IMG/VR virus record: IMGVR_UViG_3300023176_006354
Span: 1-39,355 of that record
DNA: 39,355 bases
From: a virus
Reading direction: 5' to 3' (one strand)
In this document: in pieces, positions 4,475 to 39,355 of the stretch
How positions within the stretch are numbered: position 1 is the stretch's first letter
How the letters are laid out: every line of letters begins with the position of its first letter
Notes under the pieces: generated by a model
Seen by the model: only the letters and a program-made list of their open reading frames with translations
Database searches by the model: none
What the model was told of the DNA's origin: nothing
Translations under genes and position numbers: made by a program

Positions 4475-4485
4475 TAATTAATCAC
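4456..4485 (-). terminator. rho-independent terminator-like hairpin
   Basis: Minus-strand transcript reads GTGATTA (4479-4485), an 11-base loop, TAATCAC (4461-4467), then TTTTT (4456-4460). The stem is a perfect 7 bp but AT-rich, so termination may be partial. It overlaps the stop codon of the cysteine-rich gene at 4478 and would end the fibre transcripts coming from the right. Confidence 0.5.
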
Positions 4486-5593
4486 AATTATAATGTATTT
4501 TTATCATTCCCAATCTACCAGAGTCACCGCCACATGCTTGGCATCCACCGTCAACAACTCCTCCAGCTCCACCAGCGCCAGGTACTCCACAAAGATAACC
4601 TACACCATATAAGCTCGGTGCACCGTAACAACAACCATGACAAGTATTACCATACCAACAAATAGTGCAAATACAGTCTTCATATCTTGGAACAGGAGCA
4701 TTTTTTGTCCTAGCGCCATTTAGAGTACCACTTGGTATATACATACATGGCCATATTCCAGGAACTTTGAAGATTGAAGCATTTCTATCTACACCAAAAC
4801 CATCAGCACCTGCATCACATAATACTTTCGAATTCCAGAATGATGAAAAAACTGGAGGAATATTCACGTCATCATTGCCTGAATCCCAACAAAAGTTCCA
4901 TCCACTACAACAGTTTGGTGCACAGCCATCATTATTCTGATTACCTACAGGAATCGAACACAAACCAGAATTCGTGTTTGCAAATCCTCCAGCTGTCTGA
5001 GAATCTTCTTGCCATTGAGTATAACAATGCGATTTCCCTGCCATAGCGCATGCGCTATAACAACAATATTGTCCACTTGAAGTTCCTGGGACAAGAGTGA
5101 AGTAACTATCACCGCCACTTACTCCAGGAGTTGTTTGATATGCATAACAACAATATGCACACCCCGCGCATATACATATGCATTCACCAGCTTCTACATC
5201 TATTGTTGTTGCTATATACGCGCCGTTCGGCCCAAAAGGAGCACCGCCACAACAACAGTTTGAACTTGTACCTCCACCTGGACCCCACATTTCAATCATA
5301 ACTCTAGAAACACCAGCTGGTACACACCATGTGCAGGCAGCCCCGCATCTAAAATAACCATTGGAATTCCATATACATATATGGCAATTCTGGTACTCAT
5401 TCTCTGCAACATAAGCATCTAATTGAGTTCTCCATGTAGAAGAAATGTTTTCCTCACCAGTATCGGCCGTACCAATAATGTAATCGCCAGGGCCGACGTC
5501 ACCAGTAAAATCAAGCGGTGCAGCGCCTGCAAGCTTTTTATCGATGAGTTCGTTATTAGCTCTTATACCGGCGTATAATAGTAAATCTGCCAT
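4478..5593 (-). CDS. cysteine-rich, glycine-rich putative adhesin (copy A)
   Basis: 371 residues with about 35 cysteines, mostly as C, CC or CCC clusters. A short N-terminal part (1-70) is Cys-free and may be the virion attachment. The body then contains CTWCVPAGVSRV, WGPGGG, NCCCGG and DVEAGECICIC, and ends with CGGDSGRLGMIKI. The same framework occurs in the paralogue at 6312-7436, 0.7 kb upstream. The VPAGV...WGxGGG pattern matches the glycine-rich beta domain of phage tail fibres; the dense cysteines are not part of that common form. No signal peptide is present. Role inferred as a distal tail-fibre adhesin because it lies in the fibre cluster. The cysteines could form disulphides after lysis or bind metal. 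It is the last gene before the terminator-like hairpin. Confidence 0.6.
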   Translation of the reverse strand: MADLLLYAGIRANNELIDKKLAGAAPLDFTGDVGPGDYIIGTADTGEENISSTWRTQLDAYVAENEYQNCHICIWNSNGYFRCGAACTWCVPAGVSRVMIEMWGPGGGTSSNCCCGGAPFGPNGAYIATTIDVEAGECICICAGCAYCCYAYQTTPGVSGGDSYFTLVPGTSSGQYCCYSACAMAGKSHCYTQWQEDSQTAGGFANTNSGLCSIPVGNQNNDGCAPNCCSGWNFCWDSGNDDVNIPPVFSSFWNSKVLCDAGADGFGVDRNASIFKVPGIWPCMYIPSGTLNGARTKNAPVPRYEDCICTICWYGNTCHGCCYGAPSLYGVGYLCGVPGAGGAGGVVDGGCQACGGDSGRLGMIKIHYNCD

Positions 5594-6311: not shown

Positions 6312-7436
6312 TTAACAAAAGCTCACACGAACTGCTGCACCGCGACCGCTGTCGCCACATACACTATTATTACCACCCATCGCATGGGAGAATACTGACC
6401 CGTGCCCAGGCATACATCCAAATGCAGCGCCGCCAATTCCTCCTTGGGTAGCTGTAGAACATTGCGATCCACAACACGTACCAGAAGTATATTGAATGCA
6501 GAAATCACTTCCAGGATGTTTCTGTGTAGTTGCACCACTTGCTCCAAAACAAACAGTTGGTGCATAACAAAGCCAACCGTAGTGATTAGTATCATAACAC
6601 ATAGCATTCCATCGACGTGGTATCCAACCACATACTGGATTTCTAGACGCGTCTATAGTTGTGGGAGTTTGTGTGCAATGAGACGCAATATATGGTATAA
6701 CACCACATGTGGCGCAGCTATTAAAACAATAATCATAACCACTATTACAAAAACATGAACCTGACGGAGACGTACTAGAAGGATTCATCCATCTACATTG
6801 ATATTGATTGTCCTTAGCTATAGAACCATTAGCGTGGCTAACATACTCAGCTGATGATGGATCATACCCATATGTTACTCCATACTGGACAGAACAAGAC
6901 CATGAACAAAGCGTACCGCATCCGCCGGCAGCACACAACGATGTAATTCCTGGGCCTTCAATTCTGGAACATCCAGGCGTTAACTGGATTCCACCGCGAT
7001 ATCCCATACAGCAGTGTGTACATGTATTGCATATAACGTATTGTTCTCCTGGAGTTACATCCATTACTACAGAAATAAATTCACCAGTAGATCCGCCTGG
7101 ATGACCACCACAACAACAACCACTTGAAGAACCACCTCCACTGCCCCAAAGTTGAAATCCAACCCGTGATACACCGGCCGGTACAGTCCACGTACAAGAA
7201 CTTCCACACCTATTATAATTGTTATCCCAAACACAGAAAACGCCAGTAGAAGTAGTAGGAGAATCTGAAGGTAAGCCAGTGTCATCAATTTTTGGAATAT
7301 CTTCTGCCCAATTATCAGGATTTAACACTCTTAATGTACTTAATACATCTGGGGTTAAACCCAAAGCGTCGCCAATAGATTGAGAATATTCTTCTAAATC
7401 TTCTAAAATTTTATTGTATATTAATACATTAGACAC
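6312..7436 (-). CDS. cysteine-rich, glycine-rich putative adhesin (copy B)
   Basis: 374 residues with about 33 cysteines. Residues 1-67 are Cys-free and partly helical (MSNVLIYNKILEDLEEY), probably the attachment part. The body shows RCGSSCTWTVPAGVSRV, WGSGGGSSSGCCCGG, DVTPGEQYVICNTC and a final VCGDSGRGAAVRVSF. All of these align with copy A at 4478-5593, while the middle third differs. The start is GTG at 7436, with AGGAG 8 bases upstream, and a late promoter lies at 7463-7470. The two copies probably arose by duplication and diverged in the receptor-facing part. There is no secretion signal, as expected for a virion protein folded in the cytoplasm, which makes the many cysteines unusual. 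Confidence 0.6.
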   Translation of the reverse strand: MSNVLIYNKILEDLEEYSQSIGDALGLTPDVLSTLRVLNPDNWAEDIPKIDDTGLPSDSPTTSTGVFCVWDNNYNRCGSSCTWTVPAGVSRVGFQLWGSGGGSSSGCCCGGHPGGSTGEFISVVMDVTPGEQYVICNTCTHCCMGYRGGIQLTPGCSRIEGPGITSLCAAGGCGTLCSWSCSVQYGVTYGYDPSSAEYVSHANGSIAKDNQYQCRWMNPSSTSPSGSCFCNSGYDYCFNSCATCGVIPYIASHCTQTPTTIDASRNPVCGWIPRRWNAMCYDTNHYGWLCYAPTVCFGASGATTQKHPGSDFCIQYTSGTCCGSQCSTATQGGIGGAAFGCMPGHGSVFSHAMGGNNSVCGDSGRGAAVRVSFC

Positions 7437-36574: not shown

Positions 36575-37168
36575 ATGGCAGAATCAATATTTGACAAATA
36601 TAAAAAAGACGCGATTGGTTCGGGTGTAAAACTCAGAACTGATGCTTCGCGTGATTGGTTTCAAGACAAATTAAAAACTTTAAGAAACGTCAATCGCCGT
36701 GGGTTATTAAGAGATCCAAACATGGTAAAAAGAAACCGTGCACGGGTTGGGTCGATGTATATGTATTTTTATGATCCAAAGACACGCGAAACGTTACCTT
36801 ATTATGACTCGTTCCCATTAACCATAATGGTTGAACCAGCTCCAGGAGGATTCTATGGATTAAATCTCCATTACTTACCGCCTGCTTTAAGAGCAAAAAT
36901 GTTAGACGCGTTAATGGACATTACAACAAATAAAAAATATGATGAGTCAACACGATTTAAATTATCATATCAATTATTGAAATCATCTTCTAAATTAAAA
37001 TGGTTTGCACCATGTTTTAAAAGATACTTATATGAACACATAGAGGCTTCACCTGTTATGGTGCCAGCCGATGAATGGGAAATTGCAGTATTTCTTCCGA
37101 CCGAACAATTTAGAAAAGCCAATAAGCGTTCCATTTGGAAAGATTCTAGACAAAGAGCTCTATCATGA
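36575..37168 (+). CDS. conserved T4-like virion/neck protein (gp2-position candidate)
   Basis: 197 residues, basic. It reads ASRDWFQDKLKTL, then RVGSMYMYFYDPKTRETLPY followed by YDSFPLTIMVEP, GGFYGLNLHYLPPALRAKML, SYQLLKSSSKLKWFAPCFKR with YLYEHI, and EWEIAVFLPTEQFRKA. This layout ('g.my.f.YdPK....LPYYD.fPl') is widely conserved in T4-like marine phages next to gp4. In T4 the neighbour of gene 4 is gene 2 (DNA end protector), but sequence identity to gp2 cannot be confirmed by eye, so the gp2 role is only positional. It overlaps gp54 by four bases. Confidence 0.6.
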   Translation: MAESIFDKYKKDAIGSGVKLRTDASRDWFQDKLKTLRNVNRRGLLRDPNMVKRNRARVGSMYMYFYDPKTRETLPYYDSFPLTIMVEPAPGGFYGLNLHYLPPALRAKMLDALMDITTNKKYDESTRFKLSYQLLKSSSKLKWFAPCFKRYLYEHIEASPVMVPADEWEIAVFLPTEQFRKANKRSIWKDSRQRALS

Positions 37169-38082
37169 TTTTAGATAACCCTATATCAGATTTACAAGCA
37201 AAGATATCAGAACGTGGCGGTTTAGCCCGTACAAATTTATTTGCTATTACATTTACTGGTCCAGCTTCAGTCAATCCGGACATTTATTTAGTAAATGCTA
37301 TATGCGAATCAGTATCTCTTCCTGGTAGATCTATATCTACAAATGAACACGCAACATGGAAGCATGCAACAAAGACTCCATATTCTTTTATTAATGACGA
37401 CGTTACTATGAATTTCTTAGTAACAAACGACTTTTATATTAAAAGGTTGATGGACAACTGGATGCGGTCTGTTATTAATGATGAGGATGGTGTTGTTTAT
37501 TATAAAAAGCAATACGCTTCTGATATTATTATAACTAATTTAGATTTAAAAGGCAATATGGTTTATAAGACTACATTGCAAAACGCTTTTCCAATTACGG
37601 TATCAGCAATTGAGTTATCAAATTCTTCTGAGAACGAAGTGATTCGATTAAGTGTTACATTTACATATGAAAATTTTAAAACAAATTCAACATATTTTAG
37701 TTTGGCAACATCATTGGCTGAATTAAAAAATGCAATATCTTTTCCAAATCCTTTAATGCCTTCGGTACCATTCTCGCCTTTCGGTGATCTTGGTGCTCAA
37801 GCCGAAACCATATTGGCAGGTTTAAAAGGACAAATAGCCGGTGAATTGTCTTCTGTATTACAAGCAATTACTGGCGATATACGCGGTAAAATTACTGCAA
37901 ATGCGAATTCAATCACGATACCTTACGAGGGATCGCTAGGAAGTGTAGTCAGTCAATTATCTGGTAAAGTGACTAATATATTTGGAGCGGGATTGAGTGG
38001 AACCATGAATGAAGCAGCTTCATCTGGAGGACAGAGTTTGATTTCACGCGCATCTTCAGGCGTGAAAAGTTTGTTTGGTTAA
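37165..38082 (+). CDS. gp54: baseplate-tail tube initiator gp54
   Basis: 305 residues, as T4 gp54 (320). It begins as a tail-tube-like protein (ARTNLFAITFTGP, then VNAICESVSLPGRSI). The core MDNWMRSVINDEDGVVYYKK, then DIIITNLDLKGNMVYKTTLQ and FPITVSAIELSNSSENEVIR with LSVTFTYENF matches the T4 segment with W..SVQDP.TG, DI.V, CIPISVSAPELS and I...DVTFAY. The last 120 residues are Gly/Ser/Ala-rich and helical. gp54 sits on gp48 and starts polymerisation of gp19. The start overlaps the previous gene (ATGA). An 8-bp inverted repeat covers its last codons. Confidence 0.8.
   Translation: MILDNPISDLQAKISERGGLARTNLFAITFTGPASVNPDIYLVNAICESVSLPGRSISTNEHATWKHATKTPYSFINDDVTMNFLVTNDFYIKRLMDNWMRSVINDEDGVVYYKKQYASDIIITNLDLKGNMVYKTTLQNAFPITVSAIELSNSSENEVIRLSVTFTYENFKTNSTYFSLATSLAELKNAISFPNPLMPSVPFSPFGDLGAQAETILAGLKGQIAGELSSVLQAITGDIRGKITANANSITIPYEGSLGSVVSQLSGKVTNIFGAGLSGTMNEAASSGGQSLISRASSGVKSLFG
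38042..38067 (+). other. 8-bp inverted repeat at end of gp54 gene
   Basis: TTTCACGC (38042-38049) pairs perfectly with GCGTGAAA (38060-38067) over a 10-base loop, followed by AGTTTGTTTGG. It lies in the last codons of gp54, 45 bases before gp26. The following T stretch is interrupted, so it may only slow or stabilise the mRNA rather than terminate. Confidence 0.4.
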
Positions 38083-38111: not shown

Positions 38112-38816
38112 ATGGCATTACCTAAGTTGGTGTCTGCGAAGCACACCATGAAAATACCGAGTACAGGTCAGACAGTAGAATATAGACCGTACTTAGTAAA
38201 AGAAGAAAAAGTTTTAATGATGGCATTTGAGACGAAAGACCAATCTCAAATGGTAAGAGCATTAAGGGATACAGTGGCCGCTTGTACTGAAGGCCAAGTT
38301 GACGTTGATAAGCTAGCATTATTTGATTTAGAGTACGTGTTTCTAAAACTCAGAGCAAAATCTGTTGGTGAAACATCGAAACTTAAAATTAAATGCTCTG
38401 ATTGTTCGACGTCAAATGAAGTAATGGTGGATTTAAACACTGTTGAAGTACAAGGGGAAGTAAAACAAAACGCAAAGGTCCAATTAACAGATGAAGTAGG
38501 TGTTGTATTAAAATATCCTACGGTAAAGGGATCTTATAAGAATACGAGTAAAGCAAAGGATGATACATCACAAGCCTTTGCACAAATAGCTGCATCGATT
38601 GAATCAATATACGATGCCGAAAATGTTTATGCTGCATCTGATGAGTCTGCAGAGAGTATCAATGACTTTATTGAATCTCTAACATCAGATCAGTTTAAAA
38701 AGATTACGAGTTTTTTTGATGACATGCCAAAACTAAAGCATGACATCGAGTTTGATTGCACAAACTGTAAGACTCATAATAAATTAACGATAGAGGGCCT
38801 AACGAATTTTTTCTAA
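38112..38816 (+). CDS. gp26: gp26-like baseplate hub / tail-assembly chaperone (pre-frameshift product)
   Basis: 234 residues, as T4 gp26 (208), T4-baseplate family. VEYRPYLVKEEKVLMMAFET near the N-terminus is the family signature ('...rPltvkee..l'). Two CxxC pairs are seen: C95/C98 (KIKCSDCSTSN) and C216/C219 (EFDCTNCKTHN), a likely four-Cys zinc site that flanks the domain. The last codons ACG AAT TTT TTC TAA contain a T_TTT_TTC slippery heptamer (38807-38813) directly before the stop, giving a predicted -1 product (see next entry). A strong AGGAGA ribosome site precedes ATG 38112. It lies before the tape-measure-position gene. Confidence 0.8.
   Translation: MALPKLVSAKHTMKIPSTGQTVEYRPYLVKEEKVLMMAFETKDQSQMVRALRDTVAACTEGQVDVDKLALFDLEYVFLKLRAKSVGETSKLKIKCSDCSTSNEVMVDLNTVEVQGEVKQNAKVQLTDEVGVVLKYPTVKGSYKNTSKAKDDTSQAFAQIAASIESIYDAENVYAASDESAESINDFIESLTSDQFKKITSFFDDMPKLKHDIEFDCTNCKTHNKLTIEGLTNFF
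38807..38813 (+). promoter_or_regulatory. candidate -1 programmed frameshift site (T_TTT_TTC)
   Basis: In the gp26 reading frame the sequence is AAT TTT TTC TAA. The heptamer T TTT TTC fits the X_XXY_YYZ rule, so the Phe-Phe tRNAs can slip back one base and still pair. The zero-frame stop follows at once. After slipping, translation continues CTA ATA GGT for 62 more codons to TGA at 38999-39001. Confidence 0.65.
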
Positions 38817-39001
38817 TAGGTCTCTCTCATGAAACATTGGAGAATCATTACAAAACTAACTTTGCATTGATGCAACATCACAAATATTCTCTAACTGAAT
38901 TAGATAATATGATTCCCTGGGAAAGAGAAATATATGTTATATTGCTCCAACAATATATTAAAGATGAGAATGATAGAATTAAAATGCAAAATAAGCGCTG
39001 A
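38813..39001 (+). CDS. -1 frame extension of gp26 (gp51-position tail-assembly segment)
   Basis: 62 codons, open from the slippery site to TGA 38999-39001, too short and without an own start to be called as a normal gene. The peptide begins LIGLSHETLENHYKTNF, then ALMQHHKYSLTELDNMIPWE, REIYVILLQQYIKDENDRIK and ends MQNKR. The MIPWEREIYV motif with a following helix is like the short C-terminal domains that frameshift products add to tail-assembly chaperones (lambda gpT type). The frame upstream of the heptamer holds no ATG, GTG or TTG after its last stop. The first internal ATG is at residue 20 and has no ribosome site. In T4 gene 51 follows gene 26, so this segment may be the gp51 counterpart. 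The frameshift itself is inferred. Confidence 0.6.
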   Translation, partial: LIGLSHETLENHYKTNFALMQHHKYSLTELDNMIPWEREIYVILLQQYIKDENDRIKMQNKR

Positions 39002-39015
39002 TGAGAGAGACGTAA

Positions 39016-39355
39016 ATGGCCGACGATTTAACTAAAAAACTACAAGAAATTGCGAATCAAATTGCGGAAGCAACTGCAGCAATTGCTAGAGAAAGCGAAA
39101 ATAATCAAAAGCTTTCTGGCGCAGAAAAGAAACAAAGTACCGAAGAGTTGAAAAAGCTCAATGCTACTTTGGCTGCTCTTGTAGCTGAACAAAGCGATGC
39201 AAAAGAATCTTTACAAAATTTAGACGGTCTGAACGCCCTTACACAAACATTAAAGGACCAAAAGGCTGCTGCTGATAGAGATTTAAGTCTTGCAGAGTTG
39301 GGCAAAAAGTTAGATTCCTTAAACAGTCTCACAGAAGGTAATGCTGCTTCTGAAC
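39016..39355 (+). CDS. coiled-coil protein in tape-measure/hub position, partial at window edge
   Basis: 113 residues are visible; the gene leaves the window at the right edge. It starts MADDLTKKLQEIANQIAEAT, followed by long helices rich in Ala, Glu, Lys, Gln and Leu (for example STEELKKLNATLAALVAEQS, LTQTLKDQKAAADRDLSLAE), clearly coiled coil. There is no Cys or His. The ATG at 39016 follows GAGAGA after the end of the frameshift segment. By position after gp26/gp51 and by its composition it is probably the tape measure or the gp29-like hub protein, but only the complete length can decide this. A gp28-type or scaffolding role is also possible. Confidence 0.5.
   Translation, partial: MADDLTKKLQEIANQIAEATAAIARESENNQKLSGAEKKQSTEELKKLNATLAALVAEQSDAKESLQNLDGLNALTQTLKDQKAAADRDLSLAELGKKLDSLNSLTEGNAASE

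Follow-up and report, generated by a model that had tools for sequence, protein, structure and literature searches.

The question raised by this locus is why a T4-type tail gene of an uncultured virus ends in a slippery run and is followed, in the -1 frame, by an open stretch that has no start codon ahead of it. Among contractile phages T4 serves as the model, and two of its proteins, gp26 and gp51, long counted as hub chaperones whose mechanism was not known. The window, i.e., the whole 39,355-base stretch analyzed here, is a fragment of an uncultured virus and carries T4-type baseplate, neck and tail genes. Comparison with related loci indicates that gene 26 of this marine T4-type myophage is very probably its tail assembly chaperone gene, whose product is made in a short and in a long form by means of a -1 slip on T_TTT_TTC. 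The features discussed are listed in Table 1.

Table 1. Features of the gene 26 region in the window, with the evidence for each.
Feature	Position	Strand	Evidence
Tail tube family protein, gp54/gp19-like, upstream neighbour	37165..38082	+	PHROG 45 (E 1e-35); PF06841 (gp19), PF23849 (about 1e-6)
Gene 26, short tail assembly chaperone (TAC-N), zero-frame product, 234 aa	38112..38816	+	PF12322, PHROG 150
TAA closing the -1 frame upstream of the slip site	38780..38782	+	sequence
Predicted slippery heptamer T_TTT_TTC, -1 tandem slippage	38807..38813	+	sequence; T_TTT_TTN conservation in relatives
-1 frame extension, gp51-type C-terminal domain, 62 aa + stop	38813..39001	+	PHROG 634, dN/dS, T4 gp51 alignment
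Zero-frame stop TAA, immediately 3' of the heptamer	38814..38816	+	sequence
Possible weak hairpin, candidate stimulator, a few bases 3' of the heptamer	38819..38846	+	folding energy
Tape-measure-like gene, start only, cut by the window end	39016..39355	+	matching contig L001

The identity of the zero-frame product was established by a Pfam profile search, in which residues 9-234 matched PF12322 (T4_baseplate) with an E value of 3e-63 (213.8 bits against a cut-off of 24.5), and by a profile match to PHROG 150 (E 4e-66); no Pfam chaperone family other than PF12322 was detected for gp26. The AlphaFold2 model of the protein had a pLDDT of 86.7, and no relative with at least 60% gp26 identity was found among the phage records. 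Additionally, gp26 (38112-38813, + strand) contains two CxxC pairs, CSDC and CTNC, which suggest a possible zinc ribbon. Similar pairs are found in T4 gp26 and have been lost in many cyanophage relatives (CPDDGET).

The 3' end of gene 26 reads AAT TTT TTC TAA. A first-pass annotation of this DNA had described the T_TTT_TTC within this ending, a -1 frame open for 62 codons, and the closure of that frame within about 30 bases upstream with no usual start codon, and all three observations were confirmed. After the slip, the -1 frame runs from a first codon CTA (38813-38815) to a TGA at 38999-39001; its nearest upstream stop lies 25 bases 5' of the heptamer, and no start codon is present in the -1 frame of the window upstream of the slip. 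The joined product, in which base 38813 would be read twice, has a length of 296 aa, and its extension carries the sequence LIGLSHETLENHYKTNF...MIPWEREIYV.... Among the real genes of the window, the combination of a strong terminal heptamer and a long -1 extension is found in gp26 only.

It had also been proposed that the slip would gain support from conservation of T_TTT_TTC in relatives and from a synonymous pattern of change in the -1 frame, and both were found. Related loci in which the end of gp26 is complete numbered 172 and came from uncultured contigs and named phages. In 169 of them T_TTT_TTN precedes the gp26 stop by 7 or 10 bases, corresponding to 42 of 44 clusters formed at 70% protein identity and to hosts ranging from cyanobacteria to Aeromonas, Vibrio, Ochrobactrum, Rhizobium, Acidovorax and Stenotrophomonas. 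In all 42 clusters the first Phe codon of the slip site is TTT, and the codon 5' of Phe-Phe, which encodes N, S, D, A or T, always ends in T. The joint probability of a T-ending codon and TTT, given the residues and the codon usage of each gene and treating the clusters as independent, is about 10^-23.5. Other Phe-Phe pairs within the same genes are slippery in only 2 of 41 cases, and in Acidovorax phage ACP17 the gp26 gene uses TTC for 13 of its 14 Phe codons, the sole TTT being that of the slip site. An additional seven named phages, Aeh1, phiAS5, VmeM-32, S13, Ci1, 6E35-1b and V45v66, all read GAT TTT TTC or GAT TTT TTT. Judged from these loci, the slip signal is kept in most T4-type phages outside T4's own group.

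The extension matched PHROG 634, the gp51 family of baseplate hub assembly catalysts, with an E value of 4e-28 over residues 3-62 (profile positions 58-117 of 121). When searched alone against Pfam, it returned Stealth_CR2 and NMT, which were rejected as far below cut-off. Across 625 related pairs, dN/dS was 0.088 in the -1 frame and 1.4 and 2.8 in the other two, and two thirds of the substitutions in the -1 frame fell at third positions. By this measure of purifying selection, the extension evolves as a protein in the -1 frame only. These data bear on the possibility that there is no functional junction, i.e., that heptamer and open frame occur together by accident or are what is left of a system that has decayed. 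The probability of 62 open codons at the base composition of the window is about 0.013, a value that, for the window alone, would leave some room for coincidence and is insufficient to dismiss it. It is the comparison with relatives that puts a chance origin of the open frame out of the question, since conservation in 42 divergent clusters and the low dN/dS refute it and leave this explanation with a vanishingly small probability.

The exact form of the conserved site also speaks to the level at which the frames are joined. In transcriptional slippage, RNA polymerase would insert a base at the T run and the frames would be joined in the mRNA, and such a process would fit both a homopolymer of 6 to 8 T and the record of one Stenotrophomonas phage that differs by one T exactly at the run. 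However, the run is short and usually consists of exactly six T followed by C (the second slip-site codon is TTC in 29 of the 42 clusters), and the X_XXY_YYZ register is exact to the base, which is required by tandem tRNA slippage and not by polymerase slippage. Transcriptional slippage was thus considered highly improbable, and a slip of the ribosome remains the preferred reading.

In most database records, those of several phages among them, the extension is annotated as a separate small gene (gp51), which would have its own start and be translated via internal initiation or stop-start coupling after gp26. The start codons available in the relatives are informative in this regard. An ATG overlapping the gp26 stop (TAATG or TGATG) is present in CZ01, 6E35-1b, RHph_I9 and Mendera, as a separate gene would predict, but all four also keep the heptamer, and an appreciable Shine-Dalgarno match at this ATG was seen in the Mendera group only. 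The first-pass annotation had regarded relatives with their own ATG and ribosome site as evidence against the frameshift; the ATG part of this was found in these four phages, and a candidate ribosome site in the Mendera group. An additional coupled product is possible in the lineages with a stop-overlapping ATG.

The first start candidate within the extension of the window is a TTG at 38837, nine codons in, and the first ATG, at 38870, lies inside the conserved domain; neither of these candidate starts is preceded by a Shine-Dalgarno sequence. In Aeromonas 65 and in locus L079 the first 20 codons that follow the slip contain no -1-frame start, and most other relatives have none before the conserved core. 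Aeh1, whose gene ends GAT TTT TTC GAC TGA and is followed by a 57-aa -1 extension, has no start before the middle of that extension. The window, Aeromonas 65, Aeh1, S13 and most marine relatives lack both an ATG ahead of the core and a Shine-Dalgarno sequence. The annotated starts, moreover, often remove the conserved N-terminal core (Melnitz, OC, Aeromonas 65), and T4-type gp51, as described below, is a fusion protein. Taken with the retained heptamer, these observations make a separate gene a highly improbable explanation, and production of the extension by a -1 frameshift at the end of gene 26 is favored.

In the annotated records L081, L084, L087, L089, L091 and L188-L190, the extension is either unannotated or begins at an internal ATG that removes the conserved LSH core, and a joined gp26-extension product is annotated in none of the frameshift-type records inspected.

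Loss of the heptamer with retention of both frames, which had likewise been named as evidence against the frameshift, was observed in the Ackermannvirus-like phages K444 and GG32, set against the 169 loci that keep the heptamer. In Vibrio phage K444 (L090, 3200-3405) and Salmonella phage GG32 (L091, 3290-3470), the -1 extension lies right after gp26, and the gp26 ends, ACG CTT TTT GCG TAA and GAG ATT TTC ATT TAA, respectively, contain no canonical slippery heptamer. K444 has TAATGATGG at the gp26 stop, and re-initiation or an unusual slip is possible in this phage. A different variation was seen in a copy from the Mendera group (L187, near 2259), which otherwise matches L186 and whose slip-site run is one T shorter, placing gp26 into a third frame; this may represent either a homopolymer sequencing error or a natural slip-site variant.

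The relationship between the two forms becomes clearer when the locus is compared with T4 itself. The T4 hub assembly chaperones gp26 and gp51 (PMC3004832) share with the window locus the PF12322 N-terminal family and the PHROG 634 C-terminal domain. In contrast to the window, T4 has two separate genes in divergent orientation, encoding gp26 (208 aa) and gp51 (249 aa). Residues 1-201 of T4 gp51 comprise a complete PF12322 domain (E 4e-52), which is followed by the PHROG 634 domain, and the gp26 end in all frameshifting relatives aligns with the transition of gp51 into its C-terminal domain. By this alignment, T4 gp51 is a natural fusion of a gp26 domain and the extension, joined in register at the slip point. 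The T4 gp26 gene ends GAG TTC TTT GAG, and in the T4-group genomes that could be read (44RR could not) gp26 ends GLKEFF, coded GAG TTC TTT or GAA TTC TTT, which is non-slippery. The suggestion of the first-pass annotation that T4-type gp26 and gp51 form one such system is therefore upheld by the fusion nature of gp51 and the shared domains, with the amendment that T4 itself uses two separate genes; on this evidence, the two forms very probably come from a frameshift in this phage and from two genes in T4.

This distinction explains two observations of Sullivan et al. 2010 (PMC3037559), namely that cyanophage gp51 has about 20% of the length of T4 gp51 and matches its C-terminus, and that gp51 appeared to be missing in Aeh1 only. 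An AlphaFold2 model of a T4-type gp51 (pLDDT 88.4) and the model of the window gp26 largely agree in their succession of helices and strands as far as the junction, past which the gp51 model has additional helices of lower confidence. In a tree, T4-type gp26 and gp51 group together and apart from the frameshifting genes with support of 91/90, one long-branch row aside; the tree is taken as rough support, and the long branches of L101 gp26 and 44RR gp26 (the latter having an end unlike the others) may reflect faulty sequence reading. This grouping suggests a single duplication in the T4 branch. Altogether, it seems probable that the -1 frameshift is ancestral in the T4 superfamily and that the T4 branch underwent one duplication, giving the divergent genes 26 and 51, followed by recoding of the slip site to TTC TTT.

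The slip site of the P2 E/E' pair is a T-run heptamer. The lambda G/GT and P2 E/E' pairs are reportedly produced by programmed -1 frameshifting, in work said to be that of Levin (1993), Christie (2002) and Xu (2004). The window locus resembles both in having a predicted -1 shift at a heptamer close to where a short chaperone gene ends, and a long extension. The first-pass annotation had compared its layout with those of lambda G/GT/H and P2 E/E', and the neighboring genes bear this out, with a tail-tube-type gene before the chaperone and a tape-measure-like gene after it. The latter was recognized through contig L001, in which the matching gene (L001:3405-5336, 643 aa) has profile matches to PHROG 991 (tape measure, E 7e-8), PHROG 4200 (1e-4) and PHROG 1535 (2e-4). 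The gene order is thus tail tube, chaperone, tape measure, as in lambda V-G/T-H. Unlike these similarities of layout, no detectable sequence or fold similarity to lambda gpG was seen for the window gp26, and no such link of gp26 or gp51 to gpG or to other solved chaperones was detected. Sequence and fold searches of the PDB with the gp51 model and alignment gave nothing convincing, a result that says nothing on the novelty of the fold.

By analogy with these systems, most ribosomes would stop at the TAA at 38814 and release the short chaperone gp26 (TAC-N), and a minority would move one base back on T_TTT_TTC and translate 62 more codons, yielding a long gp26-51 (TAC-NC). Many short and few long copies would then coat the tape measure protein from the next gene, as in lambda G/GT. 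The extension of the rarer long form would recruit subunits of the tail tube or the hub, and both forms would depart before completion of the virion. T4 gp51 is needed for assembly yet absent from the particle (PMC3004832), as expected of such an assembly factor. We infer the slippage itself, along with its efficiency, the ratio of short to long forms and the partners of both.

Tail assembly chaperone genes of T4-type phages have been identified before, reportedly by Vladimirov, Gautam and Davidson (2022). According to PMC10274946, that paper describes T4-like phages with a short gene and a longer fusion gene, and in PMC12846349 it is the source given for poly-T slippery sequences in the TAC-N genes of T4-like phages. 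By these two accounts, the T4-type chaperone frameshift has already been described as a general phenomenon. The present locus belongs to the same system, as far as those accounts of it extend, and is a new and well-supported case, in a marine phage that is uncultured. According to Atkins et al. 2016 (PMC5009743), the G-T frameshift is conserved widely among long-tailed phages, T4 being the exception, and an ancestral frameshift lost in the T4 branch, if true, explains this exception. A conserved -1 shift at a T run (GTTTTT) in a chaperone gene ahead of the tape measure gene is likewise known in the Vandenendeviridae and Andersonviridae (PMC12846349), families other than that of the window, the likeness being one of locus layout and motif.

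Sequences that could stimulate the slip were sought on both sides of the heptamer. Upstream Shine-Dalgarno pairing exceeded that of synonymous shuffles by a small margin (mean z of -0.5 for the 42 clusters) and was strong in a few clusters only, e.g., L018, L119, L170 and Aeromonas 65. Over 45 nt, the hairpin of the window reaches a minimum free energy of -6.4 kcal/mol, with a z of -1.5 relative to synonymous shuffles, and is suggestive only. Downstream structure had a mean z of -0.8 over 39 clusters, a strong case being CZ01 with a z of -4.2 for a 75-nt stretch. Given mean z values of this size, neither a Shine-Dalgarno sequence nor a downstream stem-loop is claimed as a general stimulator, and no strong common stimulator of either kind was found family-wide.

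If gp26 and gp51 are viewed as a short and a long version of a single protein, which most relatives would produce by frameshifting, a testable mechanism for these chaperones follows. This view would additionally permit the proper annotation of many marine phage genomes, many of the inspected frameshift-type records having the extension cut or omitted, and the T4 branch would offer a clean natural case in which a frameshift has been replaced by gene duplication.

Two other observations were made in the window, both on the minus strand. An auxiliary gene at 972-2774, close to the tail fibre region, encodes a Nol-like carbamoyltransferase (PHROG 1601, E 1e-162). Two genes at 4478-5593 and 6312-7436 both belong to PHROG 35878, a family of unknown function, and flank a third small unknown gene, an arrangement which suggests that the pair arose by duplication.
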